NCBI GenBank assembly: GCA_024743215.1
Contig: JANSWZ010000002.1
Location: forward strand, 434,001-498,000
Direction: 5' to 3'
DNA: 64,000 bases
Source: Alphaproteobacteria bacterium
GTDB lineage: Bacteria; Pseudomonadota; Alphaproteobacteria; Rhizobiales; GCA-2746425
Shown: positions 5,000 to 60,221 of the stretch, piece by piece
How positions within the stretch are numbered: the stretch's first letter is position 1
How the letters are laid out: each line of letters starts with the position of its first letter
Made by a program: the position numbers and the translations under genes
Notes under the pieces: generated by a model
Database searches by the model: none
Told to the model about the DNA's origin: nothing
The model's input: the letters and a program-made list of their open reading frames with translations, nothing else

Positions 5000-5129
5000 G
5001 TTGGGTTTGTGCCACAGGCACGCTACGCCTTCCACGCAAAATTGGGACTTGAGTTCAATTGGAAGGTTTGAAAAACACCCGACTTCGTGCAAGATCTTCC
5101 CACATTCAATAGCCAAGCTGGAAAATCCC

Positions 5130-5741: not shown

Positions 5742-5880
5742 GGTTTTTCAGCAGGGTCGGAATGACCACCTCCATTTGACCCGCAAAGACTTCAGATATG
5801 CCGCATTTGATTGACTTGCTGATTGCGGAAGCGGAACGGCGGCGAGTGATAGATTCGGCTGTGCGATTGCATTGCCGCAC

Positions 5881-11666: not shown

Positions 11667-11684
11667 GGACTCCAGCAAACCGCC

Positions 11685-13514: not shown

Positions 13515-13519
13515 TCTCC

Positions 13520-13972
13520 GTGCCAGATGACCACATGAAAGGTTCCGCGATTCATGGCACAGTTGTTGTTTGGCAAAACTCAGGCATTCTGATTATCGGC
13601 CGCTCCGGCAGCGGAAAATCTCAATTGGCTCTGGCACTGATGAGCGACGCCACGCGTCCCTGCTCTCTTGTCGCAGATGATGGCGTGCTGTTGCGTGCAG
13701 ATGGCGCAGATCTGTGGGCATCGGTTCCCGCAAGGCTGCGTGGCAAAATCGAACGTTACGGCATGGGCATTGAAACCCATGAATTCGTGGAAACCTGTCG
13801 TCTTGCTTTGGTGGTTGAACTGACGCCAAGAGACCGGATTGAGCGCATGCCAGAACCCGATGTGTTGATCTGGGCGCATGAGGCTGTTTCATTGCCCAAG
13901 TTGATCCTTCCGGAGCAGCCCAGAAATGGTGCCTCGGCTATTTATGCAACCTTGAGGCGCATCAACGCATAG
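13520..13972 (+). CDS. hprK: HPr kinase/phosphorylase, short alphaproteobacterial form
   Basis: A 150-residue protein equal to the C-terminal catalytic half of Firmicute HprK. The P-loop is GRSGSGKSQL and is followed by the VADDGVLLRADG region and the LRGKIERYGMGI segment. It would phosphorylate a serine of HPr, encoded downstream, linking carbon or nitrogen status to regulation rather than sugar uptake. The N-terminal domain of long HprK proteins is absent, as is usual in alphaproteobacteria. The start is GTG 13520, 5 bp after chvG; ATG 13535 is an equally possible start five codons later. Confidence 0.9.
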   Translation: MPDDHMKGSAIHGTVVVWQNSGILIIGRSGSGKSQLALALMSDATRPCSLVADDGVLLRADGADLWASVPARLRGKIERYGMGIETHEFVETCRLALVVELTPRDRIERMPEPDVLIWAHEAVSLPKLILPEQPRNGASAIYATLRRINA

Positions 13973-14081
13973 CTGCTTTGAAAAAGCGTTAAAATCAAAA
14001 ATTGGGCCTTGCCTTCGCACGGTCAATGCACAAGATAAAGACTGTGTTGTTACTGGGTCTGCATTTAAGCTGGGTTGTTCA

Positions 14082-14504
14082 ATGATCGGATTGGTGCTCG
14101 TCACCCACGGTAAGCTTGCGGATGAATTTCGCTCCGCTCTGGAACATGTTGTCGGCGTTCAGGAAGCGATTGCTACTATCTGCATTGGTCCCGATGACAA
14201 TATGGAAACCAGACGTGACGATATTGTCGCCGCCATTCGCTCAGTTGAGACCGGCTCCGGTGTGATTGTACTGACCGACATGTTTGGTGGCACACCTTCA
14301 AATCTCGCGATCTCCGCCATGGAACCTGGCACCATTGAGGTGATTGCTGGTCTGAACCTGCCGATGCTGGTGAAGCTGGCCAGCGTGCGGCGCGATTTGG
14401 GCGTAGTCGACGCTGCGCTCGAGGGGCAGGATGCCGGCCGCAAATACATCAATGTTGCCAGCGCGCTTCTGGGCGCAGCACCTCAAAAGACAACAACAGG
14501 ATGA
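14082..14504 (+). CDS. PTS mannose-type EIIA component (regulatory PTS)
   Basis: A 140-residue cytosolic protein with the EIIA(Man) fold. The phosphorylation site is His9 in LVLVTHGKLA, and the family motif LTDMFGGTPSN is present in the middle. With no EIIB or EIIC gene nearby, it belongs to the incomplete regulatory PTS of alphaproteobacteria, receiving phosphate from HPr and probably modulating the neighbouring ChvG/ChvI kinase system or metabolism. Its stop codon overlaps the start of ptsH (ATGA), showing translational coupling. Confidence 0.92.
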   Translation: MIGLVLVTHGKLADEFRSALEHVVGVQEAIATICIGPDDNMETRRDDIVAAIRSVETGSGVIVLTDMFGGTPSNLAISAMEPGTIEVIAGLNLPMLVKLASVRRDLGVVDAALEGQDAGRKYINVASALLGAAPQKTTTG

Positions 14505-14779
14505 CTGGCGACACGTCAGCACGCACTCTTACCATCTTGAACGCAAAGGGTTTGCACGCGCGCGCGTCAGCCAAATTTGTCAAATGCGCTGGTGCCTTTG
14601 ATGCGTCCGTATCGGTGTCCAAAGACGGACAGACGGTTGGCGGAACGTCCATTATGGGTTTGATGATGCTGGGTGCAACACCTGGAAGCACGGTGGCACT
14701 TTCAGCGACCGGGCCCGACTCCACAGCGGTTCTGAACGCTCTTGAGGCCTTGATCAAAGGTCGCTTCGGCGAGGAATAA
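14501..14779 (+). CDS. ptsH: Phosphocarrier protein HPr
   Basis: A 92-residue HPr. The EI-dependent phosphorylation site is His19 in NAKGLHARASAKF, and the HprK-dependent serine is Ser50 in GGTSIMGLMMLG. Both regulatory sites are therefore intact, in agreement with the hprK gene 530 bp upstream. It acts as the phosphate carrier between EI (ptsP, not in this window) and the EIIA encoded just upstream. The start overlaps the EIIA stop codon by four bases. Confidence 0.93.
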   Translation: MTGDTSARTLTILNAKGLHARASAKFVKCAGAFDASVSVSKDGQTVGGTSIMGLMMLGATPGSTVALSATGPDSTAVLNALEALIKGRFGEE

Positions 14780-14793
14780 AGCCCGCCAAAACG

Positions 14794-14811
14794 TATAAAG
14801 AAATCTTTATA
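14794..14811. promoter_or_regulatory. 18-bp palindrome upstream of ahcY
   Basis: TATAAAGAAATCTTTATA is a perfect dyad (8-bp arms, 2-bp centre) between ptsH and ahcY, 100 bp before the ahcY start. It could be an operator for a methionine-cycle repressor of the ArsR type (SahR/SamR group), which act on ahcY in Proteobacteria. I cannot confirm the match to their consensus. It has no U-tract and does not look like a terminator. Confidence 0.5.
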
Positions 14812-14910
14812 TTTAGTTTGCTTTATGGCTTTCACCATGATAGCAAATCGTCAAATTTACCTGCTTAAAGCCGGTCTTCCATTTCACTTATTTATCAAGG
14901 GCTATTCCTC

Positions 14911-16302
14911 ATGGCTGACTATATTGTCAAAGATCTTTCGCTGGCCGATTGGGGCCGCAAGGAAATTGCGATTGCCGAAACTGAAATGCCGGGCCTGATG
15001 GCTCTGCGCGACGAATTTGGCAAGGAAAAACCGCTGAAAGGCGCGCGGATTGCCGGGTCTTTGCACATGACCATTCAAACCGCTGTTCTGATTGAAACGC
15101 TTGTTGCACTGGGCGCAGAAGTCCGTTGGGCTTCGTGCAATATTTTCTCTACTCAGGATCATGCTGCATCTGCCATTGCAGCATCAGGTGTTCCGGTTTT
15201 CGCTGTCAAAGGCGAAACCCTAGAAGAGTATTGGGACTATGCGGACCGCATCTTCAATTGGGGCAATGGTGAAACTGCCAACCTCATTCTTGATGATGGC
15301 GGCGATGCAACGATGCTGATCCTGTTGGGTGCGCGCGCTGAAAAGGATATTTCGGTTCTCGACAAACCGGAAAACGAAGAAGAAGAAGCCCTTTTCGCGA
15401 CCATCAGAAAGCGTATCGCCGAAACACCAGGCTGGTTCTCCAAAGTTCGTGAGAACCTTCAAGGTGTGTCAGAAGAGACAACCACAGGCGTTCACCGTCT
15501 TTATCAGATGCAACAGCGCGGTGAGCTGCCGTTCCCAGCCATCAATGTGAATGACAGTGTTACCAAATCGAAATTCGACAATCTTTATGGTTGCCGTGAA
15601 AGCCTTGTTGACGGCCTGCGCCGTGCAACCGATGTGATGATGGCAGGTAAAGTGGCCGTCGTATGTGGCTATGGTGATGTTGGCAAAGGATCTGCTGAAT
15701 CCCTGCGCTCGTCCGGAGCGCGCGTTATTGTCACCGAAATCGATCCCATTTGTGCGCTTCAGGCAGCCATGGAAGGATTTGAAGTCGATATACTGGATGA
15801 TGTTGCCTCAAAGGGCGATATTTTCGTGACAACGACCGGCAACAAGGACGTCATCACCGTCGATCATATGCGCGCCATGAAGGACCGGGCCATCGTGTCC
15901 AATATTGGTCACTTTGACAGTGAAATTCAAATTGGTGGACTGCGGAATTTCAAATGGCACAATGTAAAACCTCAGGTTGATGAAGTTGAATTCCCGGATG
16001 GAAAGCGCATCATTGTACTGGCCGAAGGCCGGTTGGTGAATCTTGGCTGTGCAACAGGGCATCCAAGCTTTGTGATGTCAGCCAGCTTCACCAATCAGGT
16101 ACTCGCACAGATGGAATTGTGGAACAGAGGCGACCAGTACAAAAATGAGGTCTATGTCCTGCCCAAGCACCTTGATGAAAAGGTAGCCTTGCTGCATTTG
16201 GCCAAGCTTGGCGTTAAATTGACCCGCCTGACAGATGATCAATCCAATTATATTGATGTACCGGCAGACGGCCCATACAAGCCTGACCACTACAGGTATT
16301 AA
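14911..16302 (+). CDS. ahcY: Adenosylhomocysteinase (S-adenosylhomocysteine hydrolase)
   Basis: A 463-residue cytosolic enzyme that splits S-adenosylhomocysteine into adenosine and homocysteine, removing the inhibitor left by methyltransferases. Visible family signatures are [15 protein letters not shown], the NAD-binding [17 protein letters not shown] with the acidic ribose ligand in [17 protein letters not shown], and the C-terminal KPDHYRY tail that closes the neighbouring subunit's NAD site. GGGCTATTCCTC precedes the ATG. A dyad at 14794-14811 may regulate it. The adenosine product could feed the adenosine deaminase-like gene further downstream. Confidence 0.96.
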
Positions 16303-16329
16303 TACAAAATTAACCATACACTATATGTA

Positions 16330-16367
16330 GGGGTCGGTGAAAAAAGTGATTCACCGCCCCCTTTTTT
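16330..16367 (+). terminator. Intrinsic terminator after ahcY
   Basis: GGGG-T-CGGTGAA at 16330-16341 pairs with TTCACCG-CCCC at 16350-16360 around an 8-nt loop, followed by six thymines. It lies 28 bp after the ahcY stop codon and fits a strong Rho-independent terminator. Confidence 0.88.
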
Positions 16368-16556
16368 ATGCCCTTAAGCGCTTCCCCCCGATTCGCGAAG
16401 CAGGTAATTTCGACTGATTCGTTTTGGTTGATGCGGATCTTTTAGTCCCAACAACCGTATCGCCCTGGTGGCGACCAACGAATTTTGTGAGTAGCCGATG
16501 TGGCCATTGTATGGGTCACGCTCTGGCGCGTTGAGTTTGGTTCTTGAGGATTACGT

Positions 16557-41512: not shown

Positions 41513-41584
41513 GTTTCTTTGCCAATAATCCGCTTCATAAGACCGCCGCAGAATCCCGCCAGGATCAGCAGCGCTGTTTGAAAA

Positions 41585-41685
41585 GTGGGAGGCTGAACAA
41601 AGACCCGAACCGGAATCTCGTTAGGGCTGCTTCCTTCCGGATCTGACCCGGTTGGCGAGTGGTCCGTCCTACGCCAACCTCCCAC
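41585..41685 (-). ncRNA. ffs: Signal recognition particle RNA (4.5S type)
   Basis: The reverse strand folds into a single long hairpin with complementary ends (GTGGGAGG with CCTCCCAC). It carries the universally conserved SRP domain IV segment: GGTCAGATCCGGAAGGAAG followed by CAGCCCTAACGA, including the GGAA tetraloop and the symmetric and asymmetric internal loops bound by Ffh. Its length of ~101 nt fits the bacterial 4.5S class. Position upstream of dnaX is common. Confidence 0.95.
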
Positions 41686-48789: not shown

Positions 48790-49803
48790 ATGAATTTCAA
48801 GCGACCATTTGGCAAATTGGAAGATCGCACTGAAATCAACGAAGTTGAAATTGGTGCCGGAGCGTTGCGCGCAAAAATTCTGACCTGGGGAACCGTCCTG
48901 CGGGATTTGCGGCTGGATGGTTTTGATCATCCCCTTGTGCTGGGTTTTGACCGCCTTGAGGATTACGCCAATCACTCGCCTTTCTTTGGCGCAACTGCGG
49001 GCCGCTATGCCAACCGCATCGCCTATGGCCGATTTCCACTCGATGGCCGCATACATCAACTCAGTCAGAACACCGAGCCGCACCATCTGCATGGAGGGCA
49101 TGCCAGTTTTGGCAAGCGTCTATGGACGGTCGGATCGATTGCGCCAGATTCCATTCGCCTGACACTTGTTTCGCCCGATGGTGAAGATGGGTATCCTGGT
49201 CGGGTGATGGTCAGCTGTACCTACAAGATCGTTCCGCCTGCCTCACTTCACGTGATTTATGAAGCCACGACCAATGCGCCAACACTGATGAATCTGGCGC
49301 ATCATTCCTATTTCAATCTGGATGGCTCACCGGACATTCTGGACCACACACTGCAGATTGAGGCAGATGCCTATACGCCCGTGACACAGGATATGATTCC
49401 AACCGGCGCCGTGTTGCCAGTGCAAAATACCTTGTTTGACTTTCGCGAAGCGCGGCCTGTGCGCACTTTGCATGAAGGCCGCCGCATTGCCTTTGACACC
49501 AATTATGTACTGGCACTTGCGCCACGCCCAAGACCCGTTCCCGCTGCGCGACTGAGCAGCTCCCGCAATGGTTTGTCGATGGATGTTCTGTCCACAGAAC
49601 CCGGCCTGCAATTTTACGATGGTTACAAGTTGAATGTGCCGGTTCCCGGTCTGGATGGCCGCAATTACGGTGTCAGTGCCGGGCTGTGTCTGGAGCCCCA
49701 GCGCTGGCCGGACAGTCCAAACCACCGTCACTTTACCGATTCCACATTGCGGCCAGGCGAGACCTATTTTCAGGAAACGATTTACCGCTTCAACATGGCT
49801 TGA
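48790..49803 (+). CDS. Aldose 1-epimerase (mutarotase, GalM-like)
   Basis: A 337-residue GalM-type epimerase that interconverts alpha and beta anomers of free aldoses. The core motifs are FFGATAGRYANRIAYG, NTEPHHLHGG, NLAHHSYFNL with the catalytic His, and GLCLEPQRWPDSPN with the catalytic Glu. ATG 48790 is preferred (AGGTGGGG directly upstream) over a TTG at 48766. It could be an analogue of YihR, the mutarotase of the sulfoquinovose operon, given the neighbouring genes, or simply serve the XylB-like dehydrogenase upstream. Its end overlaps the convergent EamA gene by 22 bp. Confidence 0.88.
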   Translation: MNFKRPFGKLEDRTEINEVEIGAGALRAKILTWGTVLRDLRLDGFDHPLVLGFDRLEDYANHSPFFGATAGRYANRIAYGRFPLDGRIHQLSQNTEPHHLHGGHASFGKRLWTVGSIAPDSIRLTLVSPDGEDGYPGRVMVSCTYKIVPPASLHVIYEATTNAPTLMNLAHHSYFNLDGSPDILDHTLQIEADAYTPVTQDMIPTGAVLPVQNTLFDFREARPVRTLHEGRRIAFDTNYVLALAPRPRPVPAARLSSSRNGLSMDVLSTEPGLQFYDGYKLNVPVPGLDGRNYGVSAGLCLEPQRWPDSPNHRHFTDSTLRPGETYFQETIYRFNMA

Positions 49804-50723
49804 TCCGTCTTCTTATCCAATTGCCTTCGATAGAGGGAATAGGCATGTGGCAGCATGACTCCGGCGATGATTACCATCATGCCTGCCCAGTCAAACAGGC
49901 GCGGAATATCTCCCAGAATGACTATTGCAGCCAGTGATCCAAGGACGGGGTTCAAGGCAACGTAAATTGACACCCAGGCCACTTGCAGGTGTCGCAGCGC
50001 AAAGTTGAAGATTGCGTAGTTCAACACCGTCATGCCCAGAACAAGATACGCCATTGCGAAAATCTGCAGCGGGGTGCCCAAGGTGATAAATGACAAGGCG
50101 TTGGTGGCAAGTGCGAGACTGAAAACGGCAATCAGTGCTCCGGTCACCTGCAGGGTCGCTATCTGGAACCAGGGAATGTCGCCGCTGTTCATACGCCGCC
50201 CCACAATCTGGCTGAAACTGGCGCACAGAACAGCAACAAACACCAATACATTGCCGGTCAGATCACCAACTCCGGCGGCTTCCCGGCTGAGGCTGACGAT
50301 CAGGAGCCCACCAAAACCGACACAGCTACCAACAGCCAGTGACCAATGGGCATTTTCCCGAAGCATCAGATAACCAAGCGCGGAGACAATCAACGGCAAT
50401 AGTCCCCACATAAGGGCCAGTGAAACCCCGTCAGTGCGCGCACCGCCATGAATGCTGAAGATCAAAACTGCGCCTGGTGCCATGAAACCCCATAGCAAAG
50501 TTTTTCCAAAGCGCAGATTCAGTGGCGGCAGCTGATGCCTTGCAAAACAGATGATCCACATGATGATGGCAGCGCCCAAAAACTGCCAAAGCAGAACGGT
50601 GGTGGGTGCGAATTCTACGGCCAAAGCCTGCTGTACCATGAAGCCGCAAGAAAAAATCGCCACTGAGGAAAGCTGCGCCAGATGTGCCAGCAAAGTGGAC
50701 CTTTTGGTCGTCCGTTCTTTCAA
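49782..50723 (-). CDS. EamA/DMT-family transporter
   Basis: A 313-residue membrane protein with ten helices in two EamA repeats (residues ~12-145 and ~160-290), each ending in a typical small-residue helix (AYLVLGMTVLNYAIFNFALRH, VSIYVALNPVLGSLAAI). The family exports metabolites or imports small solutes. The start is TTG 50723, with GGTGGA upstream. It is divergent from the TRAP operon, and the dyad at 50745-50765 lies between them. Co-regulation suggests it may export the end product of the pathway encoded here, such as a C3 sulfonate, an inference. Confidence 0.83.
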   Translation of the reverse strand: MKERTTKRSTLLAHLAQLSSVAIFSCGFMVQQALAVEFAPTTVLLWQFLGAAIIMWIICFARHQLPPLNLRFGKTLLWGFMAPGAVLIFSIHGGARTDGVSLALMWGLLPLIVSALGYLMLRENAHWSLAVGSCVGFGGLLIVSLSREAAGVGDLTGNVLVFVAVLCASFSQIVGRRMNSGDIPWFQIATLQVTGALIAVFSLALATNALSFITLGTPLQIFAMAYLVLGMTVLNYAIFNFALRHLQVAWVSIYVALNPVLGSLAAIVILGDIPRLFDWAGMMVIIAGVMLPHAYSLYRRQLDKKTDQAMLKR

Positions 50724-50744
50724 GATTAGTCCACCATTTGTTGA

Positions 50745-50765
50745 GTCTTGTAAAAGATATAAGAC
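50745..50765. promoter_or_regulatory. Shared operator, copy 1 (GTCTT-N11-AAGAC)
   Basis: GTCTT (50745-50749) and AAGAC (50761-50765) form an interrupted dyad whose 11-bp spacer differs from copy 2 at 54647-54667 in only one base. The flank TTGA lies before both copies and TTAGG after them. It sits 22 bp upstream of the EamA start codon and 106 bp upstream of dctQ, placed to control both. No regulator gene is in the window. Confidence 0.72.
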
Positions 50766-50870
50766 CTGTTAGGATTGAAGAAGGGAAGAATTGAATTGAC
50801 CGCCGCAGCGGTATCGTCTTGCATAAAAAGGTCCGTTAAGGATCGGGTGGGCGATGCAGGGGGAGACATC

Positions 50871-51422
50871 ATGGCAGCTTTAGCTGGCTTTATAACACTT
50901 CTAACACGTATCAATGATGCGGTCTTCTGGGTTGGTCGACAACTCTCCTGGATCGCAATTGGAGTGATGGTCCTCATCATTCTTGCGCAAGTATTCGCGC
51001 GTTACATCCTGAATGACGCCTTGCCCTGGTCCGAAGAACTTGCACGGGTTTTGATGTTGTGGCTGACAGGATTGATGGCGCCATCCGCCTATCGCTGGGG
51101 CTCCTTCGTTGCCATTGACATGTTCCGCGATCTTCTTCCGCGCTGGCCGCGCGCTATTTTGACCCTCTGCCTGTTTGGTATTTCACTGATCGTTCTGATC
51201 GTGATGACACAGTATGGCTGGAAACACATCAACAGTGGTTGGTTGTTCGGGTCCGCTACACTGAAAATCAAACTTGCCTGGGTCTATATGGCACTTCCGG
51301 TAGGGTTCCTGATGATGATTTCAGCCTGTGTTGAGCTGATTGCCAAGGAACTCCACGAAGCACTTGATCCGAGTGTCAATTATAAATCCGGCGACAACGC
51401 GCCAGAATTTATCGCGGAGTAA
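50871..51422 (+). CDS. TRAP transporter small permease (DctQ type)
   Basis: A 183-residue protein with four membrane helices. It shows the DctQ signature ARYILNDALPWSEELARVLMLWLTGLMAPSAYR split over helices 2 and 3, where the Trp-Ser-Glu-Glu is the strongest family mark. It forms the stalk that couples DctP to DctM in periplasmic TRAP uptake driven by Na+. The start is ATG 50871 because GGGGGAGAC sits directly upstream; a longer TTG frame from 50775 overlaps the promoter. The dctM gene follows after 5 bp. Confidence 0.9.
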   Translation: MAALAGFITLLTRINDAVFWVGRQLSWIAIGVMVLIILAQVFARYILNDALPWSEELARVLMLWLTGLMAPSAYRWGSFVAIDMFRDLLPRWPRAILTLCLFGISLIVLIVMTQYGWKHINSGWLFGSATLKIKLAWVYMALPVGFLMMISACVELIAKELHEALDPSVNYKSGDNAPEFIAE

Positions 51423-51427
51423 AGCCC

Positions 51428-52765
51428 ATGCTTGTCTGGTTCCTGCCTCTCTTTCTAGTCCTCCTGATGATCAGCCTGCCGGTGTTTTTCGGCTTGTTGT
51501 TTGCACCCGGCGTTCTGCTCTGGCTGAACGGCCAGGAGCGTGATCTGGCGCTTTTGTACCGTAACGTTTTCAACGGCATCGACTCCTTTCCATTGATGGC
51601 CATTCCATTCTTTATGCTGGCAGGTGAAATGATGAACCGGGGCGGCATCACCATGCGCCTGGTTGAATTCAGCCAGTCCATGATGGGCCACTTTCGCGGC
51701 GGACTTGCCCATGTGAACATTCTGTCGTCCATGCTGTTTGCGGGCCTTTCCGGTTCGGCCGTTGCTGACACATCGGCACTTGGATCAATGCTTATTCCTG
51801 CCATGGAAAAGCAAGGCTATACGCGCCGTTTTGCGGCTGCCATTACCGCGGCCTCATCTGTCATCGGGCCGATCATTCCGCCTTCAGGCATCATGATTAT
51901 TTATGCTTATGTGATGGGCGAATCAGTTGCCGCTCTGTTTCTAGCTGGCATCGTTCCCGGCGTTCTGGTGGGTGTCGGCCTGATGGTCGTTACCGGCATG
52001 ATGGCCCAACGTTATAATTACCCTGTCGCCAGAGAGCGTGCCAATTGGGGTGAACGCTGGCAGGCATTGGTAAAGGCATTTTTCCCGCTCCTGACCCCCG
52101 TCATTATTTTGGGCGGCATTCTGGGTGGCGTCATGACGCCAACAGAAGCTTCTGCTGTCGCGGCGGCCTATGCGTTTTTTGTCGGTATGTTTCTTCTTAA
52201 AACCATTAGCTTCAAAGACCTGCCATCGATCCTGACAAAAGCCGCACTGACCTCTTCGGTTGTGCTGCTGTTGGTTGGAGCGGCAATGGCTTTCAAAACA
52301 GTGGTCAGCCTGTCCCGCGCTCCTGAAGCGCTTGCGGAAATGATTTTGACACTGTCCAGCGATCCTTTGATGCTGCTGTTCCTTATCAATATCCTGCTGT
52401 TCATTGTCGGCATGTTCCTGGATGCGGGCCCTGCGATCATCATTCTGGGGCCAATCCTTGGGCCCATATTCATCAATATGGGCGTCGACCCGGTCCATTT
52501 TGCCATCATCATGAGCGTCAATCTGACGGTTGGTCTGGCAACGCCGCCGATGGGACTGGTGTTATTTGTCGCCTCGAGCGTCTCCGGTGAGAAGGTGGAG
52601 GCCATTTCAAAAGCCATTCTGCCATTCCTGGCCGTTGAAGTTTTCGTGATTTTCCTGATCACCTATTTCCCGGTCATCTCTATGGGCGTGCCATGGCTGA
52701 CTGGTTTCGTTTCACCGGATTCCGATCTTATGGGACCGGTTCTAAGACTGATTTTCGGGGGCTAA
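51428..52765 (+). CDS. TRAP transporter large permease (DctM type)
   Basis: A 445-residue permease with about 12 helices. It shows the DctM motifs AIPFFMLAGEMMNRGG, SSMLFAGLSGSAVADTSALGS, and IGPIIPPSGIMIIYAY in the first half, and MFLDAGPAIIILGPILGPI plus NLTVGLATPPMGLVLF in the second. It carries out Na+-driven uptake of the solute delivered by DctP. TRAP systems usually take up carboxylates and sulfonates, seldom neutral sugars, which matters for the substrate of this cluster. Confidence 0.93.
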   Translation: MLVWFLPLFLVLLMISLPVFFGLLFAPGVLLWLNGQERDLALLYRNVFNGIDSFPLMAIPFFMLAGEMMNRGGITMRLVEFSQSMMGHFRGGLAHVNILSSMLFAGLSGSAVADTSALGSMLIPAMEKQGYTRRFAAAITAASSVIGPIIPPSGIMIIYAYVMGESVAALFLAGIVPGVLVGVGLMVVTGMMAQRYNYPVARERANWGERWQALVKAFFPLLTPVIILGGILGGVMTPTEASAVAAAYAFFVGMFLLKTISFKDLPSILTKAALTSSVVLLLVGAAMAFKTVVSLSRAPEALAEMILTLSSDPLMLLFLINILLFIVGMFLDAGPAIIILGPILGPIFINMGVDPVHFAIIMSVNLTVGLATPPMGLVLFVASSVSGEKVEAISKAILPFLAVEVFVIFLITYFPVISMGVPWLTGFVSPDSDLMGPVLRLIFGG

Positions 52766-52844
52766 AACCGGAAATCATATAAATGACATTTGCTTGTTAC
52801 ATCGTAGCGAATAAACTGAGATTCATTGTAAAGGGAGGACTTCC

Positions 52845-53933
52845 ATGAAACTCAAATCCTTACTATCAACCTTCGCGGCTTTTGCCGTTGGAGCAGCCTT
52901 TATGGGCACCGGAATTATTTCCGATGCACAGGCCGCTTCGCATGCCGAGAAAATCACTCTGCGTGCAACTGCCAACTCCAATGAAAATGATGAAGACTAT
53001 GATGGTCTGGTTGTTTTCAAGAATTATGTCGAAAATGCATCCAATGGTGCCATTGCCGTTGATTTGTTCATCGGTACACAATTGTGCTCCAAGGGCGCTG
53101 AGTGTCTTCAGGGCATCGCTGACGGATCGATTGATATTTACATCTCCACATCAGGTGGTGCCGCCGGCATTTTCCCATATGTGCAGGTGCTTGATCTGCC
53201 TTATCTGCTGCGCGATGACCGGATTGCCGAAGAAGTTCTGCAAAGCGACTTCGTCCGCACAATGCGTGCCCAGATGCTGGCTGATTCCGGTGATACGATC
53301 CGCCTGATGACAATTGGCAATACTGGTGGCTGGCGGAACTTTGCCAACACACAGCGTCCGATTCAGAAGCCTTCCGACATGGAAGGTCTGAAAATCCGGA
53401 CCGTGGTGGCAGATCTTCCACAGGAACTCGTCAAAGCACTTGGCGCCAGCCCGACCCCGATTCCCTGGCCTGAGCTTTTCACTTCATTCCAGACGGGTGT
53501 TGTTGAGGGTTCCAAAAACGGCATTACCGATGTCATGGGCATGAAGTTCCCGGACGCCGGTCTGCAGTACATGACCCTTGATGGCCATGCCTATATGGGC
53601 GCCTTGTGGTTCATGAGCAATGATCGCTTCATGGCTATGGATGAAGGCATGCGCCGCGTAGTCGTCGATGGTTTTTCTGCTCTTCAGCAGGCAACCTTCG
53701 CGTCACCAAAACGCAAATCCATTGCAGCCTATGAAGAGTTTGTCGCCGGTGGCGGTAACCTTTATGTGCCAACGCCTGAAGAAAAAGCCATGTTCCGCGA
53801 AGCAGCTGCGCCTGTGTTCGACTGGTTCAAGGAAAATATTCGTGAAGGTGAAACCTTCTATCAGGCACTTGTTGATGCAGCCGCTGCAGCGGAAGAAAAA
53901 ATCGACGGCGGCGCTATGATGGATGTGAAGTAA
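52845..53933 (+). CDS. TRAP transporter substrate-binding protein (DctP type)
   Basis: A 362-residue periplasmic protein with a signal peptide ending near AQAASHAEK. The DctP fold is seen in IGTQLCSKGAECLQGIADGSIDI, NWRNF-type GGWRNFANTQRPIQKPSDMEGLKIRT with the Arg that binds the anionic group of the ligand, and WPELFTSFQTGVVEGSKNGI. It would present an acidic solute to DctQM. In this operon P is last (Q-M-P). AGGGAGG precedes ATG 52845, and a strong terminator follows the stop. The ligand might be sulfoquinovose or a sulfoquinovosyl glycerol if the downstream operon is sulfoglycolytic. Confidence 0.92.
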   Translation: MKLKSLLSTFAAFAVGAAFMGTGIISDAQAASHAEKITLRATANSNENDEDYDGLVVFKNYVENASNGAIAVDLFIGTQLCSKGAECLQGIADGSIDIYISTSGGAAGIFPYVQVLDLPYLLRDDRIAEEVLQSDFVRTMRAQMLADSGDTIRLMTIGNTGGWRNFANTQRPIQKPSDMEGLKIRTVVADLPQELVKALGASPTPIPWPELFTSFQTGVVEGSKNGITDVMGMKFPDAGLQYMTLDGHAYMGALWFMSNDRFMAMDEGMRRVVVDGFSALQQATFASPKRKSIAAYEEFVAGGGNLYVPTPEEKAMFREAAAPVFDWFKENIREGETFYQALVDAAAAAEEKIDGGAMMDVK

Positions 53934-53986
53934 TCCAGTCGCCCCAATCTGACGGCCCTGATTTCAGGTCTGTCAGACATAAATCA

Positions 53987-54019
53987 GGCCGCTTCAGCGT
54001 CATGTTGAAGCGGCCTTTT
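53987..54019 (+). terminator. Intrinsic terminator after dctP
   Basis: GGCCGCTTCA (53987-53996) pairs perfectly with TGAAGCGGCC (54006-54015) around a 9-nt loop, followed by TTTTGTTTG. It ends the TRAP operon and lies in the gap before the convergent Sel1-repeat gene. Confidence 0.92.
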
Positions 54020-54045
54020 GTTTGAGCATCTGCAAGGTCAGAGCC

Positions 54046-54561
54046 TCAATATTCCGGATAAAGATGATCCTTGTAATCATCAATCAGCAATTCAGCTTTT
54101 GCGATCTGTTCCGGTGTCATTTTCTTGACGACTTCGTTCATGGAAATTGCTGCATCGGGATCGCCGCCAATGGCCGACAGCGTATACCAGGTATAGGCGC
54201 GCGGCAGATCCGGGGCTGGTATGCCGCGACCGACTTCATAATACCATCCAATGCCTGATTGTGCGCCGGGATGTCCCTTCAACGAGGCCCTCAAATACCA
54301 GTCAAACGCGCGTTCGTCATCACGCTCGACGCCAAGGCCCATGGCATACATGACACCAATCAGCTCCTCTGCATCTGCGTTTCCGCCCTGTGCCAATGGC
54401 AGAAAAATTTCTCTGGCTTCCTCAAATCGGCTGGCTTTCATGGCCGTTAAGCCATCAAACAAATCCGCCCCAGCAGCGCTTTGCGTTGCCAGCCCCGCCA
54501 GCGCAAACAGGCCGATGACACCATTGCGCAAATTGAGTCTGAAACTGGTTTTTCTGATCAT
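54046..54561 (-). CDS. Sel1-like repeat (tetratricopeptide-type) secreted protein
   Basis: A 171-residue protein with a signal peptide (hydrophobic segment ending in QSAAGADL). Three Sel1-type helical repeats follow: AREIFLPLAQGGNADAEELI, AFDWYLRASLKGHPGAQSGIGWYY and AYTWYTLSAIGGDPDAAISM. Such domains are protein-interaction scaffolds in the periplasm. It lies on the opposite strand between the TRAP operon and the kinase operon, divergent from the latter, with the second operator copy 86 bp upstream of its start. Its role in the cluster, if any, is unknown. GGAGG precedes ATG 54561. Confidence 0.83.
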   Translation of the reverse strand: MIRKTSFRLNLRNGVIGLFALAGLATQSAAGADLFDGLTAMKASRFEEAREIFLPLAQGGNADAEELIGVMYAMGLGVERDDERAFDWYLRASLKGHPGAQSGIGWYYEVGRGIPAPDLPRAYTWYTLSAIGGDPDAAISMNEVVKKMTPEQIAKAELLIDDYKDHLYPEY

Positions 54562-54646
54562 TTTCGCCTCCGTAAAAATCTCTGCCTACAATAGGAAGAC
54601 AACAGGGAAACGCAATGCGACGAAGACGTGATTTCCGCCATTGAGA

Positions 54647-54667
54647 GTCTTGTAAAAGACATAAGAC
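54647..54667. promoter_or_regulatory. Shared operator, copy 2 (GTCTT-N11-AAGAC)
   Basis: The same interrupted dyad as at 50745-50765, with one base changed in the spacer, again after TTGA and before a TTAGG motif. It lies 65 bp upstream of the kinase ATG and 86 bp upstream of the Sel1-repeat gene on the other strand. A likely promoter overlaps it (TTGTAA at 54650-54655, TAGGGT at 54673-54678, 17-bp spacer), so a bound repressor would block it. Confidence 0.72.
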
Positions 54668-54731
54668 TTGATTAGGGTCAAAAGTGAGCAAATTTGTGCT
54701 CTACCTACACCCAGAAATTCGGGATCGGCTC

Positions 54732-55655
54732 ATGGCCACGGTCATTTCTCTTGGCGTTGCAGTGCAGGATTTCGTCTTTTCCATAGATGAAATCCCGACA
54801 GAGGCACGCAAATACAGAGCAAAAGATTTTACGGCAGTCGGTGGTGGCTGCGCGGCCACGGCAGCTGTTGCCGTGACACGCCTTGGTGGCGACTGCCACC
54901 TGATTTCACGGCTTGGCAATGACATGACGGCTGACATAATTGTTGGCGATCTGGAGTCAGATAACGTCAACTGCGCAGGCGTGAAACGCTTCGAAGGTTA
55001 TAAATCTCCCCTGTCTTCCATCATGGTGGACCAGGCCGGTGAACGCCTGGTAGTCGGTTTCCGTGACGAAAAAATGCCGACGGATCCGGGGTTTGTGGCA
55101 GATTACTTTGGCGCGCCAGATGCGGTGCTTGCAGACAGCCGCTGGGCAGAAGGTGCCGTGCGTCTGTTTGAGTTGGCTGCGGAGAAACACATTCCTGCCG
55201 TTCTGGATGGAGAAATGCCCTTTGGCGAGATCGAGCGCGAAGCAGCGCATCTGGCGACCCACCCGGTTTTCTCGGCTCAGGGCCTGCGGGACTATGCAAA
55301 GGAGTCTGATGTTCGAACCGGTGTGCTGGCTGCCAGTGCGTTGCGCGAAGGGCGATGGACAGCAGTGACTGACGGACCAAATGGCGTTTATGTCGCTCAC
55401 AATGGACTGCTCAACCGCTTGCCCGGACACCAGATGGATGTGGTCGACACATTAGGCGCCGGTGATGTCTGGCACGGTGCATTTGCGCTGGCTCTGGCCG
55501 AAGGCAAAAATGACGAACAGGCTATGATATTTGCGACAGGCGCAGCGGCATTGAAATGCACTCAGTTCGGTGGGCGCAAAGGCACACCATCGCGCCAGAT
55601 TCTAAACAATTTTCTTGAAACACACCCACTCCAGATGGAGCCTATTTCCCTATGA
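54732..55655 (+). CDS. PfkB-family sugar kinase resembling YihV (6-deoxy-6-sulfofructose kinase)
   Basis: A 307-residue ribokinase-fold kinase. The N-terminal PfkB motif is VGGGCAATAAVAVTRLGG and the C-terminal one is VDTLGAGDVWHGAFA with the catalytic Asp. From memory it aligns with E. coli YihV without gaps over the first ~108 residues (IPTEARKYRAKDFTAVGGG; SSIMVDQAGER) and again at ALKCTQFGGRKGTP. Of YihV's reported sulfonate-binding residues Lys27, Asn109 and Arg138, Lys27 and the Arg (Arg137 in ADSRW) are kept, while Asn109 is Gly. ATG 54732 gives this register; an upstream GTG at 54684 would sit at the probable transcription start. The stop overlaps the aldolase gene. Confidence 0.85.
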   Translation: MATVISLGVAVQDFVFSIDEIPTEARKYRAKDFTAVGGGCAATAAVAVTRLGGDCHLISRLGNDMTADIIVGDLESDNVNCAGVKRFEGYKSPLSSIMVDQAGERLVVGFRDEKMPTDPGFVADYFGAPDAVLADSRWAEGAVRLFELAAEKHIPAVLDGEMPFGEIEREAAHLATHPVFSAQGLRDYAKESDVRTGVLAASALREGRWTAVTDGPNGVYVAHNGLLNRLPGHQMDVVDTLGAGDVWHGAFALALAEGKNDEQAMIFATGAAALKCTQFGGRKGTPSRQILNNFLETHPLQMEPISL

Positions 55656-56707
55656 CACACTCACTTTCTCACGGTAAATTATGGGGCCTTCGCAGAATGG
55701 CGGACGCCAATGGTCGCTACAAAATGCTTGCCGTTGATCAACGCCCGCCGATCAAGAATCCGATTGCGAAGTTCCATGGCACCGCGGAAGCTCCTTACAA
55801 GGATGTGACGCAATTCAAGCTGATGTTGCTGGAAGAATTGCAGGCCAGTTCAACGGCCATGCTTCTGGACCCCCATTTTGCGCTGCCAAAAGGCCTGCGG
55901 ATGATCGATCCAACCAATGGTTTGATTGTCACTCTGGAAGACTCCCTGTTTGAAGAATCTGATGGCGGACGTGTTTCAGCGGAAATCGACAATTGGAGTG
56001 TCGAGAAAATCAAGCGGGTTGGCGGCGATGCGGTCAAGGTCCTCGCCTGGTATCGCCCTGATGCCTCTCCGCAAGTCTGTCAGGCGCAAAAGGATTTCAC
56101 CAAACGGATTGGCGATGCTTGCGCCCGTTTCGACATTCCGTTTCTGTTTGAGTTGCTTGTCTATCCGCTGTCCCATGATGCGCATCAGACGAAAGATTAC
56201 GTGGAAATGCAGGGCAAGGATTCTGCCCATGTCCTGGAAAGCGTTGCCGAATTTGCTCATGCCGATTACGGCGTCGACGTATTCAAGCTGGAAAGCCCTG
56301 TCAGTGCTGCCGTTGCAGCCGGTAACGGGTCCATGGGCTCTGATGCCATTCAAGGCCTGTTTGATGAAATGGGCCGCCTGTCTGCCCGGCCATGGGTGAT
56401 GCTGTCAGCCGGTGCTGACAAAGCGGCTTTCACGAACATTCTGGACCATGCCTACAAAGCCGGCGCGTCTGGCTATCTGGCGGGACGGGCAATCTGGCTG
56501 GATGCGTTTGGTGCATATCCGGACTGGGACGCGGTGCGGACCGGACTGCAGGCCGATGCAGTGCCATATATGAAATCAATCAATGAATTGACCGATGCAA
56601 ATGCTTTGCCCTGGTTTGATCATGACCGCTTCGGTGGGACAACAGGACCGGATTTTGCTATTGATGATGACGATGCCGGTTTCCGCAATTCCTATACCGG
56701 GTTTTAA
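55652..56707 (+). CDS. LacD/YihT-like class I ketose-1-phosphate aldolase
   Basis: A 351-residue class I aldolase of the LacD/YihT family. Recognisable parts are YKMLAVDQRPPIK near the N-terminus, MLLDPHFALPKG, IKRVGGDAVKVLAWYRPD, VDVFKLESPVS with the probable Schiff-base Lys212, and RPWVMLSAGADKAAF followed by AGASGYLAGRAIW. Each has a counterpart in YihT as I remember it, with an N-terminal and C-terminal extension. It would split a ketose 1-phosphate into DHAP and an aldehyde: 3-sulfolactaldehyde if the substrate is 6-deoxy-6-sulfofructose 1-phosphate. A tagatose bisphosphate aldolase role is the alternative. Start ATGA overlaps the kinase stop. Confidence 0.83.
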   Translation: MTHSLSHGKLWGLRRMADANGRYKMLAVDQRPPIKNPIAKFHGTAEAPYKDVTQFKLMLLEELQASSTAMLLDPHFALPKGLRMIDPTNGLIVTLEDSLFEESDGGRVSAEIDNWSVEKIKRVGGDAVKVLAWYRPDASPQVCQAQKDFTKRIGDACARFDIPFLFELLVYPLSHDAHQTKDYVEMQGKDSAHVLESVAEFAHADYGVDVFKLESPVSAAVAAGNGSMGSDAIQGLFDEMGRLSARPWVMLSAGADKAAFTNILDHAYKAGASGYLAGRAIWLDAFGAYPDWDAVRTGLQADAVPYMKSINELTDANALPWFDHDRFGGTTGPDFAIDDDDAGFRNSYTGF

Positions 56708-56718
56708 AGGTTTATCGC

Positions 56719-58104
56719 ATGTCCAGCATTGGTGTTCTGGCCCTTGGCCGCCCCACATTTGATGTCGAATTCGCGCAGGAGCTGCTTGGCGAAGCGCGCG
56801 AAGCTCTGACAGCCAGCGGCCATGAGATCATTGGCGGTGAAACATTGTTGTTCGACGCTGATGCCACCGTGTCAGCACTGGACATGTTGAAATCCCGGGA
56901 TCTGGACCTTGTTCTGATTCTTCAGGTAACCTTCACCGATGCCAGCATGACCGTGCGGATTGCCAGTGAGCTGAATGCGCCTTTGGCGTTGTGGGCGTTT
57001 CCAGAACCGCGCCTTGGCGGGCGGTTGCGATTGAACGCATTTTGCGGCCTGAATCTGGCCGCACATGCTCTTGGCCTGAATGATACGGCCTTTTCCTATG
57101 CTTATTCCGCGCCCGGTGAAACAGATGTAAAAGCTTTGCTGGATGATTTTCTATCAGGCAACCGACAAGCTTCCCCTCGCCTTGGCAAGGAGGTCACGGT
57201 TGATACCAGTGCAGTAAGTGTGGCCATTGAGCGTCTCAAGGGCAAGCGCATTGGCCGTATTGGTGAACGTCCGGACGGGTTCGATACCTGTCGCTACAAT
57301 GCCAACACCGTGGAGCATCTCACCGGCGTCAAAATTGATGAAATCGAGCTTGATGATCTGTTCCAGACGGCCCGCACAGTGCCTGCAGAAGCAATTTCGG
57401 CCAGCCGGAATATGGTGTCCGATCTGGGCGGGCTTGCAGAAGTGGATCAGCCACAGCTGGATCGGTCGCTGGCGTTACATGGCGCTTTGCAAGATATGCA
57501 AAAGGGCAAGGATTACAGTGCTTTTGCCATTCGCTGCTGGCCGGAAACCTTCACTGAATATGGCGGCGCGGTCTGCGGACCGGTTGGCATGATGGGCGAA
57601 TCCAGGATTCCCTGTGCCTGCGAAGCTGATGTTTATGGCGCGCTAACCAATCTGCTGGTGCAGGAACTGACCGGATTGCCTCCATTTCTGGTGGATCTGG
57701 TCGATTTGGATGAGGCCAGTGAGACCGGCGTTGTCTGGCATTGCGGACAGGCCCCCATATCCATGTGTGATCCGGAGTTTGAGCCTCAGGCGAGCATTCA
57801 CTCCAATCGAAAAATGCCGCTTCTGTTTGAATTTCCATTGAAGCCAGGACGCGTGACCCTTGCGCGTATCAGCCAGGCGCGTGGCAAACAAAGCCTGTTT
57901 CTGGCGACCGGAAACATGCAAACGGCACCGCTGGCCTTTTCCGGCACCGCCGGCGTGATGCAGTTTGATGCGGGCATCAAGAAGACGCTGAAAGCAGTGA
58001 TGGATGCCGGGCTGGAACATCACACGACCCTCGCCTATGGCGATCATGCGGAGACGCTGACGGCAGCTGCCAGCGCCCTCGGCCTTCCCGTGATTATGGC
58101 TTGA
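56719..58104 (+). CDS. L-fucose isomerase-like ketol-isomerase
   Basis: A 461-residue protein of the L-fucose/L-arabinose isomerase fold. The N-terminal Rossmann-like domains (IGVLALGRPTFDVEFAQ; LDLVLILQVTFTDASMTV) and the metal site near AIRCWPETF (Glu276) and PCACEADVYGAL (Asp304) fit FucI-type Mn2+ enzymes. It would turn an aldose into a ketose ahead of the kinase. Sulfo-EMP2 and sulfo-transketolase pathways use an isomerase of this general family (SqvD) instead of YihS, which fits the neighbours. AAGG precedes the ATG, and the stop lies just before the GH31 start. The natural sugar is not proven. Confidence 0.8.
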   Translation: MSSIGVLALGRPTFDVEFAQELLGEAREALTASGHEIIGGETLLFDADATVSALDMLKSRDLDLVLILQVTFTDASMTVRIASELNAPLALWAFPEPRLGGRLRLNAFCGLNLAAHALGLNDTAFSYAYSAPGETDVKALLDDFLSGNRQASPRLGKEVTVDTSAVSVAIERLKGKRIGRIGERPDGFDTCRYNANTVEHLTGVKIDEIELDDLFQTARTVPAEAISASRNMVSDLGGLAEVDQPQLDRSLALHGALQDMQKGKDYSAFAIRCWPETFTEYGGAVCGPVGMMGESRIPCACEADVYGALTNLLVQELTGLPPFLVDLVDLDEASETGVVWHCGQAPISMCDPEFEPQASIHSNRKMPLLFEFPLKPGRVTLARISQARGKQSLFLATGNMQTAPLAFSGTAGVMQFDAGIKKTLKAVMDAGLEHHTTLAYGDHAETLTAAASALGLPVIMA

Positions 58105-58115
58105 AAGAGAACAAG

Positions 58116-60221
58116 ATGAGCGCCCTTCCACAAACCACCAAGATTGATGAAACCATTCCCTTTGATATTCTCAATCCCAATTGGAGCGCGTGTCGCCAGA
58201 CAGAAGTTCTGGGCACCGCAAAAATTGTCTCTCCCGGCCAACTGATCTTCGACACGACCGACGGTCCGTTTCACATCACGACGCTGGAGAATGGCGTCAG
58301 GCTCAATCTGGGGCCACATGACAAGCCGGATTATGGCATTCTGGATGGAGACCCGGCTCCCATACCGGCAGACGTAGAACAAACCGACGGCGAAACCAAA
58401 ATCAGCTGGGGCTGGTTTACCTTGACCGTCCGTCACCAACCAATGGCGATTGATTTTCACAGATGGGACGGCCCGATTCTGGAGTCGGCCCGTGACGGCC
58501 ATTTCGTACGTGAATTCCGCCTGCCGCCATTTGCCCGTGTCGACAAGGGCTGGCTTGTCAATTTCGATCTGACCAGCCAGGAGCCGGTCTATGGACTTGG
58601 GGAAAAATGGGGCCCGCTGGACAAGCGTGGACAGCTTGTCCATTCCTATACACATGATGCGCTGGGTGTTAATTCGGAGCGGTCTTACAAAAACTGCCCA
58701 TTTGCGTGGTCCCCGGCAGGTTGGGGCATTTTTGTGCATACACCAGCGCCGGTTCTGCATGCCATTGGATTTTCGCAATGGTCACACCGGGCTTATGGCT
58801 TGCTGGTGGAAGATGAAGCGCTTGATCTGTTTCTGATTTGCGGCAAGACCCCCGAGCGCATTCTTGAACGCTATACGCGGCTCACTGGCCGGCCCGCCAT
58901 GCCGCCGCTCTGGAGCCTTGGGGCTATCCTTTCCAAAGCCTATTATCAGACACCGGCAGAGTTTCTGGAAGCTGCCCAAACTGTTCGCAGTTACGGCATG
59001 CCATGCGATACAATTACCTTTGATGGCCGCGCCTGGCAGGACACTGATACGCGGTTCCATTTTGACTTCGACCCAAAGCGGTTCGACGATCCCAAAGCAA
59101 TTATCGACCAGGTCAAGGAGATGGGCTTTCATGTGTGTTGCTGGGAGTATCCGCTCGTCTCGGTCAACAGCCCGATCTATGATCAATTGAGCGAGAAGGG
59201 TTATTTTCTCACCGACAGACGTACTGATTTACCCTATCGTTATGAATGGGATATGGAACCATTTGGTCAGGTCCTGACACCCTTGCCGGATTCAAGCCTC
59301 ATAGATTTCACCAACCCAGCTGCCTATGATTGGTGGCGCGATCAGCACAAGGATCTGTTTGCGCTTGGCGTCGATATGATCAAGAGCGACTTTGGCGAAC
59401 AGGTTGAGCTGGATTGCAAGGCCTTCAATGGCGATACCGGTCATAGACTGCATAATGTGTATCCGCTGCTCTACAATCGATGCGTTTACGAAGCCTCTGA
59501 AATGTATTCTCCTGACGGCGCATGCCTTTTGGCACGGGCTGGCTGGGCTGGTTCCCAGCGTTATCCGGCCCAGTGGGGCGGCGATCCGCAAGCCGACTGG
59601 GAAGGTTTGGCTGCTTCTCTGCGCGGCGGCCTGTCATGGGCCAATACCGGCGCGGCCTGTTATGCAACAGACATCGGCGGATTTTACGGTGACACACGGG
59701 ATTCAGAACTATTCGTGCGCTGGACGCAGGCCGCTGTCTTTTCTTCTCACATGCGCTTCCATGGTATTGGTGACCGGGCTCCATGGTCCTATGGGGAACG
59801 GGCGGCAAATGCTGTCATGGCTGCCCTGAAGCTGCGCTACAGATTGTTGCCTTATCTTTGGCGAGCCCTTCAGACAGCCTGCGAAACCGGGCTCCCCGTT
59901 CAGCGTCCCATGGCGGTCGCTTTCCCCGATGATCCCGCTGCTTGGAGCTTTGAGCTGCAATTCATGTTTGGTCCCGACATTCTGGTGTCTCCGATTGTGC
60001 GTTCGCAGGGTATTGGCAAGACCTATCTGCCTGCCGGCAATTGGCGCCATCTTGTGACGCAAGAGCCAGTTGCGGGTGGGCGGGTGATCAATCAGCAACT
60101 TGATCTGGAAAGCATGGCCGTTTATGTGAAAGAAGGAGCCACAATTCCGTTCGGTCCTTCCGTGCAGCATACGGGCCAAATCGGAGATACTCCGCTGATT
60201 GAGGAAAGCTGCAAATATTGA
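58116..60221 (+). CDS. GH31 alpha-glycosidase (YicI-like)
   Basis: A 701-residue GH31 hydrolase. An N-terminal beta-sandwich is followed by the barrel, whose nucleophile is Asp425 in MIKSDFGEQ and acid/base Asp490 in QWGGDPQADW; RFHGIGDRAPW carries the family's substrate Arg. Layout and motifs resemble YicI alpha-xylosidase and related alpha-glucosidases more than YihQ. No signal peptide, so it acts in the cytoplasm on a glycoside imported whole. It would release the aldose for the isomerase. A YihQ-like RTHEG motif is absent, so sulfoquinovosidase activity is not supported by the known signature. ATG 58116 is used; the frame opens at TTG 58101. Confidence 0.88.
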   Translation: MSALPQTTKIDETIPFDILNPNWSACRQTEVLGTAKIVSPGQLIFDTTDGPFHITTLENGVRLNLGPHDKPDYGILDGDPAPIPADVEQTDGETKISWGWFTLTVRHQPMAIDFHRWDGPILESARDGHFVREFRLPPFARVDKGWLVNFDLTSQEPVYGLGEKWGPLDKRGQLVHSYTHDALGVNSERSYKNCPFAWSPAGWGIFVHTPAPVLHAIGFSQWSHRAYGLLVEDEALDLFLICGKTPERILERYTRLTGRPAMPPLWSLGAILSKAYYQTPAEFLEAAQTVRSYGMPCDTITFDGRAWQDTDTRFHFDFDPKRFDDPKAIIDQVKEMGFHVCCWEYPLVSVNSPIYDQLSEKGYFLTDRRTDLPYRYEWDMEPFGQVLTPLPDSSLIDFTNPAAYDWWRDQHKDLFALGVDMIKSDFGEQVELDCKAFNGDTGHRLHNVYPLLYNRCVYEASEMYSPDGACLLARAGWAGSQRYPAQWGGDPQADWEGLAASLRGGLSWANTGAACYATDIGGFYGDTRDSELFVRWTQAAVFSSHMRFHGIGDRAPWSYGERAANAVMAALKLRYRLLPYLWRALQTACETGLPVQRPMAVAFPDDPAAWSFELQFMFGPDILVSPIVRSQGIGKTYLPAGNWRHLVTQEPVAGGRVINQQLDLESMAVYVKEGATIPFGPSVQHTGQIGDTPLIEESCKY

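Follow-up and report, generated by a model that had tools for sequence, protein, structure and literature searches.

Sulfoquinovose is a major sulfonate of plants and algae, and many bacteria cut it only as far as a C3 sulfonate, which is then finished by another organism. In E. coli, the sulfoquinovose genes are controlled by the local repressor CsqR (YihW), for which sulfoquinovose has been reported as effector (available text of PMC10991401). For sulfolactate, a regulator gene named SuyR has been listed together with suyAB, slcC, comC and the putative importer SlcHFG, citing the work of Denger and Cook (2010) on Chromohalobacter salexigens (available text of PMC6018796); the accessible portions of the open-licence literature gave neither an operator nor a protein family for SuyR. 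Here we consider a stretch of 64,000 nucleotides (the window) of an alphaproteobacterium of the Rhizobiales lineage GCA-2746425 (assembly GCA_024743215.1, contig JANSWZ010000002.1, positions 434,001 to 498,000), in which two nearly identical 21-bp sites stand 5' of transporter genes and of a catabolic operon. Judging from sequence and gene context, we think it very probable that these two sites are operators of a GntR/HutC-type repressor, SuyR-type by its gene context and encoded on another contig, which would join sulfosugar breakdown to sulfolactate desulfonation and probably to sulfite oxidation.

Two window sites and a regulator gene on another contig

An earlier note on this DNA had described two 21-mers, different at a single base, in divergent intergenic regions, and both points hold: the first lies between an EamA gene (minus strand) and the TRAP (tripartite ATP-independent periplasmic) transporter genes (plus strand), the second between a Sel1-repeat gene (minus strand) and a kinase gene (plus strand). 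Their parts are as follows, with scores from the matrix described below.

50745..50765, plus strand: operator 1, GTCTTGTAAAAGATATAAGAC, 5' of the TRAP transporter genes and also facing the divergent EamA gene; 31.7 bits
50746..50757, no strand assigned: inner palindrome of operator 1, TCTTGTAAAAGA
50759..50765, plus strand: third half-site of operator 1, ATAAGAC
54647..54667, plus strand: operator 2, GTCTTGTAAAAGACATAAGAC, 5' of the kinase-aldolase-isomerase-glycosidase operon; 32.5 bits
54648..54659, no strand assigned: inner palindrome of operator 2, TCTTGTAAAAGA
54661..54667, plus strand: third half-site of operator 2, ATAAGAC

The flanks agree roughly with their earlier description as shared; TTGA abuts site 1, but site 2 reads TTGAGA-GTCTT, with no direct TTGA contact, and the sequences 3' of the two sites are GACCTGTTAGG and GACTTGATTAGG. 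The bare dyad GTCTT-N11-AAGAC, allowing one mismatch, occurs three times in the window against 1.18 expected, and ten of 100 shuffles reach three, which is not significant. The claim therefore rests on the full 21-mer GTCTTRTAWAAGAYATAAGAC, which at up to three mismatches matches twice in the window and not at all in 100 shuffles. With a slightly stricter 21-mer pattern at the same tolerance, the 5.09-Mb genome holds four matches and the reversed control none, about 0.29 being expected by chance as calculated for the looser pattern and the base composition of the window. The copy at C12:346769, with three mismatches, apparently falls within coding sequence and was put down to chance. The copies with at most one mismatch are three in number, and each adjoins related genes.

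The third of these copies, GTCTTATATAAGACATAAGAC at C15:97723 (one mismatch to the pattern, two bases from site 2), sits between a minus-strand set of suyAB-slcC-comC-like genes and a plus-strand GntR/UTRA gene. The earlier note had correctly found no regulator gene near the window sites; this third copy places the candidate that it could not see on another contig.

G000:C15:97778-98575, plus strand: GntR/HutC-type regulator gene, divergent from the suyAB-slcC-comC-like genes

The predicted protein carries an N-terminal GntR winged helix-turn-helix (PF00392, 2.4e-22) and a C-terminal UTRA domain (PF07702, 4.1e-29), and its nearest solved relatives in the PDB are DasR and YvoA. Four arginines (R158, R160, R237 and R250) stay the same in all 24 regulators aligned, a pattern that appears compatible with an anionic ligand. 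Comparison of recognition helices fails to split the regulators by presence of the site, the sequence VSQGTVRKA being common to 78 with a site and 18 without. The genes on the minus strand encode a small SuyA-like and a large SuyB-like protein, an SlcC-like 2-hydroxyacid dehydrogenase and a ComC-like Ldh_2 protein; the architecture of the SuyAB-like pair fits the split galactarate-dehydratase-like subunits of a SuyAB sulfolactate sulfo-lyase, but the pair reaches the cut-off of no dedicated model.

The dyad with the 11-bp spacer is real, being formed by the first and third half-sites as an outer pair, but it is not the unit that is conserved. Conservation among relatives is highest for the inner 12-bp palindrome TCTTRTAWAAGA (GTCTT-N4-AAGAC), after which comes the third half-site ATAAGAC. 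An unguided expectation-maximisation search of 28 intergenic sequences between suyA and the regulator gene (one from the genome of the window, 27 from outside its genus, one genome being included twice) returned the same motif, GTCTTATATAAGACATAAGAT, with a log-likelihood ratio of 475.8; four shuffled sets, run with fewer starts and rounds, gave 55.7–63.0. Positions 2–13 of this motif, position 6 excepted, carry 1.6–1.8 bits each and the third half-site 0.6–1.4 bits. Because the inner palindrome is the most informative part, we take the conserved unit to be a palindrome whose arms are 4 bp apart, together with one half-site repeated in direct orientation. Of the 31 listed suyA-regulator intergenic regions, 27 have the core TCTTRTAWAAGA without any mismatch; the miss at L117 is an artefact of the cut-off, the site there overlapping the start of the tblastn match. 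A matrix built on 25 suyA-regulator sites, all of them from outside the own genus, gives the two window sites the scores listed above, within the range of its training sites (22.0–40.8 bits), and a Markov null predicts 0.018 matches per 20 kb at 14 bits or more. A sigma-70 scan of 50600–54900 returned no promoter-like match, so we make no firm promoter claim for the sites; by eye, TTGTAA-N16/17-TAGGRT overlaps each window site in this genome.

Genes behind the sites

The window genes next to the two operators are these.

49782..50723, minus strand: EamA-family transporter, divergent from operator 1
50871..51422, plus strand: TRAP small permease DctQ
51428..52765, plus strand: TRAP large permease DctM
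52845..53933, plus strand: TRAP solute-binding protein DctP
54732..55655, plus strand: PfkB-family kinase
55652..56707, plus strand: LacD/DeoC-type class I aldolase, nearest solved relative 8tnf (DUF2090)
56719..58104, plus strand: fucose-isomerase-like protein, whose sole NCBIfam match is sulfoquinovose isomerase SftI (268 bits, 9e-80)
58101..60221, plus strand: glycoside hydrolase of family GH31, closer to YicI than to YihQ

The genus alignments favour ATG 50871 as the start of DctQ and ATG 54732 as that of the kinase; the 5' part of the TTG-started open reading frame (ORF) of the former and the GTG 54684 opening of the latter are not frame-conserved in G004. All five enzyme classes of the sulfo-Embden-Meyerhof-Parnas (sulfo-EMP) and sulfo-EMP2 pathways are represented, with an isomerase below cut-off, a kinase, an aldolase, a YicI-like glycosidase, which might be an uncharacterised kind of sulfoquinovosidase, and a GalM-like gene as mutarotase. 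The cluster is a predicted hybrid of sulfo-EMP and sulfo-EMP2 parts, and hybrid clusters that pair a FucI-type isomerase with a YihR mutarotase have been reported (available text of PMC9594981). The earlier reading of a sugar operon sharing its site with a transporter is supported, with the correction that the sugar is most likely sulfoquinovose.

The five genomes of the genus together have 25 distinct places with the exact core TCTTRTAWAAGA (35 strand matches), and 22 of these precede genes of regulon type (6/6 in G000, 5/5 in G002, 6/6 in G003, 5/7 in G004 and 0/1 in G001). Five kinds of unit follow the core sites: the TRAP/EamA genes, the kinase operon, suyAB and the divergent regulator, a TctC-TctA importer, and a molybdopterin oxidoreductase with iron-sulfur and DmsC-type subunits. 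The last two were recognised only after the sites had pointed to them. In the genome of the window the motif is rare and not unrelated to such genes, all six exact-core sites preceding sulfosugar, sulfolactate, importer or sulfite-oxidase-like genes. Before the TctC/TctA importer two cores stand 28 bp apart (G000:C12:881413 and 881441; L254 3406-3453), a twin arrangement also found in G003, while G002 and G004 have a single core there; the putative importer SlcHFG is of the tripartite tricarboxylate type. The oxidoreductase looks like SoeABC; it has no dedicated NCBIfam model at cut-off, and we presume the name SoeA for its subunit. Of 120 loci, 19 (two of them repeats) have relatives of TctC/TctA (52–75%) within the suy locus, and four have relatives of the SoeABC-like proteins (49–69%) there, one of these by SoeC alone; the presence of these relatives inside suy loci gives independent support for both as members of the regulon.

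Several observations concern genes near such sites or elsewhere in the material. At 8680-8700 of L148 (G004:C1:984000-1003900; that is, G004 C1:992687) a full-length site, GTCTTATATAAGACGTAAGAT, scoring 36.3 bits, is flanked by genes for a flavodoxin-fold and an extensin-like protein; no gene for sulfonate use was recognised next to it. L095 (G192) holds at 11069-16467, between the regulator and suyA, a TauE/SafE sulfite exporter gene and succinate dehydrogenase/fumarate-reductase-like genes, and several operator-like sites occur in this locus. Just past the suy genes of L005, at 4650-5966, is a gene similar to N-acylglucosamine-2-epimerase/D-mannose isomerase, the enzyme type to which the E. 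coli sulfoquinovose isomerase YihS is related. The window also carries a bacterial small signal recognition particle RNA at 41584-41683 on the minus strand (Rfam RF00169, 53.3 bits), adjoining the gene for DNA polymerase III gamma/tau.

Distribution in the genus, the order and beyond

When the genus genomes are aligned, only one of the 21 positions varies, in the midst of flanks that diverge, most clearly in G004. Four of the five genus genomes carry exactly three sites without mismatch (two at the sulfoquinovose cluster, one at the regulator) together with the regulator and the isomerase, and the site between suyA and the regulator is present in all four that have the regulator. The fifth, G001, has no site at up to three mismatches, no isomerase and no regulator match at 1e-40. 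The reversed control gave one match in the five genomes, in G003. The motif was present 5' of the orthologous operons in all three genus relatives that carry the cluster, where the earlier note would have had it looked for.

The regulator is matched at 1e-35 in 48 of the 249 genomes of the order, the isomerase at 1e-40 in 19. Taking as close the regulators at E of 1e-59 or below (30 genomes, a cut chosen after the list was seen, at a point where a gap follows), 12 genomes share regulator and isomerase (Fisher p 2.9e-8; 4e-6 if the own genus enters only once). At up to three mismatches the reversed control matches no fewer genomes than the pattern, and we therefore judged the order level by matches with at most one mismatch and by the trained matrix. 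The former occur in 23 of the 249 genomes, all 23 of them among the 30 with a close regulator (hand count).

We also scanned the best 80 regulator loci of named genomes, with Alpha-, Beta- and Gammaproteobacteria among the titles. A site of at least 18 bits lies within 400 bp 5' of the regulator in 60 of the 80, and in 40 of the 49 in suy or sulfoquinovose context; two of these loci, both with a site, repeat training genomes (L193 = G219, L226 = G169), and without them the counts are 58 of 78 and 38 of 47. With the training genomes included, there are 121 regulator rows, 80 of which have suy genes in the locus; the site is present in 73 of the 83 in suy or sulfoquinovose context and in 23 of the 38 others.

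Sulfoquinovose operons outside the genus were found at 23 distinct loci, of which two are cut by contig ends, leaving 21 testable. A site precedes the operon in 12 of the 16 testable loci with the regulator and in none of the five without it. Nine of the 12 were found by script (L101, L109, L136, L138, L156, L188, L195, L215 and L221), the site of L195, L215 and L221 belonging to a regulator gene that heads the operon. Three were added by hand: L166 and L168, where the script's chain broke and a 35.8-bit site stands directly before the kinase gene, and L102, where a 29.2-bit site is followed by same-strand ORFs, including an ATP-binding cassette (ABC) binding protein and a permease, that run into the kinase gene. 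The five site-less loci without a regulator match are all of one genus, and their isomerases are more distant (42–45%). In L147 (G091) a 34.0-bit site precedes a sugar-type ABC transporter, and the EamA gene carries a site of its own in G044 and G083; across loci the transporters differ while the operator stays.

Working model, rival readings and known systems

GntR proteins of HutC type usually act as repressors that a ligand releases. We propose that a dimer of the regulator would bind the inner palindrome TCTTRTAWAAGA, with the third half-site ATAAGAC giving a further contact, and would repress the five transcription units in the absence of ligand. A C3 sulfonate, most likely sulfolactate or perhaps its neighbour sulfolactaldehyde or sulfopyruvate, might then bind the UTRA domain and lift repression, so that the cell would switch on jointly the uptake and cleavage of sulfoquinovose, the uptake of sulfolactate, its desulfonation, and the oxidation of sulfite. 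In 18 of the 30 order genomes that carry a close regulator the isomerase was not matched. The effector should therefore be one that sulfolactate by itself can also yield, and a C3 sulfonate fits best.

A number of results weigh against this model and need to be set beside it. In the five genus genomes the reversed core still has 13 strand matches, where the core itself has 35, and at three mismatches the pattern matches 49 of the 249 order genomes and its reversed control 52 (hand count). For three of the 25 core places (G004 C1:992687, G004 C1:4150142 and G001 C62:30582) no gene of regulon type was recognised, the genes at the last matching none of the regulon query set; the Tct sites precede TctC only if its start is an ATG, and otherwise fall inside the longest ORF, which opens at the first TTG. 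G001 carries a regulator relative after all (33% identity, 3.7e-36), and other GntR-like genes are present in the genome, one of 35 first-look candidates passing 1e-40. Ten of the 83 rows in suy or sulfoquinovose context lack a site within 400 bp 5' of the regulator, although seven of these carry one before suyA, leaving L171, L191 and L200 with none; four of the 16 testable operons with a regulator also lack it (L131/L139, which are one genome, L135, L140 and L141). The enzyme assignments have their own weak points: the isomerase score of 268 bits compares with an SftI cut-off of 700, the glycosidase is nearer YicI than YihQ, the ComC-like protein scores 213 of 500, and the best match of the SuyB-like protein is galactarate dehydratase at 137 of 731. 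Finally, the occurrence of the same operator beside genes of tricarboxylic acid (TCA) cycle type, discussed below, means that the operator alone proves no sulfonate role.

Of the other readings, the one to which we would give most room, while still holding it unlikely, keeps the sites as operators of this GntR protein and lets the operon degrade another sugar, such as a xyloside or a deoxy sugar. The closeness of the GH31 enzyme to the YicI alpha-xylosidase, the sub-cut-off isomerase with no PDB relative at 0.001, and the general families of kinase and aldolase all suit it; against it stand the sole NCBIfam family of the isomerase, sulfoquinovose isomerase at 9e-80, the seven loci (L102, L156, L166, L188, L195, L215 and L221) in which isomerase genes share one locus with suyAB and the operator, and the hybrids of FucI-type isomerase and YihR mutarotase already reported (available text of PMC9594981). 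Alternatively, the sites could belong to another factor, of LysR type or another GntR protein, the suyA-side site being a co-regulated target and the adjoining regulator gene a bystander. The LysR-type box has T-N11-A spacing. The outer dyad has the N11 spacing, and the third site has a LysR gene some 7 kb away, but the highest information is held by the inner N4 palindrome, not by a T-N11-A dyad as main element, and on this ground the LysR operator was rejected. A bystander gene would also fit poorly with a site that accompanies this very GntR gene in 60 of the best 80 named loci, including betaproteobacterial loci without suy genes in the fetched DNA, with the close regulator in all 23 order genomes matching at one mismatch or fewer (hand count), and with the absence of the site from the five isomerase loci of one genus that lack the regulator; we regard this reading as improbable. 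That the dyads are RNA attenuators, terminators or copies of a mobile repeat seems to us hardly credible. They are inverted repeats in intergenic regions, as such elements would be, yet no T run follows them, neither is in the terminator-like list, and the three genome copies at one mismatch or fewer each adjoin related genes, on which grounds this reading was rejected; moreover, the 21 bp stay invariant but for one base while the flanks diverge between species. Returning to the GntR/HutC operator, the genome-wide motif check and the check in relatives both support the earlier proposal that transporter and catabolic operon are under one common regulator.

The operator reaches beyond sulfonate loci. 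A tree of the 121 regulator rows, drawn with a midpoint root, contains a supported group (100/96) of 13 regulators, each with the site; 11 of them lie near malate dehydrogenase or citE-type genes, and the members with telling titles are Betaproteobacteria. Since every member of this group has the site, the operator characterises a wider subfamily of regulators. GntR relatives that lie by citE-like or malate dehydrogenase genes and have a nearly identical operator were seen at L205, L212, L223, L225 and L230 (Methylophilaceae, Gallionella) and at L194, L201, L203, L206, L227 and L231. They are probably a second regulon of the same subfamily, and the predicted sulfonate role is that of most alphaproteobacterial and some gammaproteobacterial members sampled. 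As a tentative proposal, for which we would put the chances somewhat short of even, one ancient GntR regulator-operator pair (TCTTRTAWAAGA plus third half-site) may have preserved the same DNA code in Alpha-, Beta- and Gammaproteobacteria, even as the genes under its control shifted between TCA-type and organosulfonate catabolism; the latter branch would sense a C3 sulfonate as a phosphate-like UTRA ligand and unite in a single sulfonate regulon the genes for sulfosugars, sulfolactate and sulfite, whether these lie scattered or clustered.

The shared operator predicts that in this genus the whole job from sulfosugar cleavage through sulfolactate desulfonation to a sulfite-oxidase-like complex is done in one cell under one switch. 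For the regulator this supplies a DNA site that can be tested and a few candidate effectors; in many proteobacterial genomes, scanning for the motif allows the regulon to be read, and with it the transporters that are part of it. The operator is undescribed in the open-licence literature that was searched. What appears new is the assignment of regulator to operator; the predicted arrangement is of a known kind, the autoregulated GntR/HutC regulon.

YvoA/NagR and DasR, GntR repressors of the HutC subfamily, regulate amino-sugar genes and have a different core operator. They share the two-domain architecture and are the best-scoring solved relatives, but pathway and operator differ here. The betaproteobacterial GntR gene by malate dehydrogenase or citE-type genes, which may resemble an 'SdhR'-like regulator of RegPrecise, shows 40–44% identity with nearly the same operator 5', yet belongs to a separate, well-supported group with a TCA-type neighbourhood and no suy genes in the fetched DNA. 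HpsR of Ruegeria pomeroyi, assigned to dihydroxypropanesulfonate genes, would likewise regulate a C3-sulfonate set, although it is annotated as LacI family (available text of PMC4334477). CsqR shares the tie to sulfoquinovose catabolism; as far as the available text on it goes, it is of the DeoR family, whereas the regulator here is a GntR protein with a UTRA domain, is encoded on another contig, and also sits on sulfolactate genes. SuyR, as far as its published context is accessible, has the same setting: both are regulator genes belonging to sulfolactate-degradation genes, here adjoining suyAB with slcC and comC, and what is predicted in addition for the present system is the link to sulfoquinovose operons and to genes of sulfite-oxidation type.

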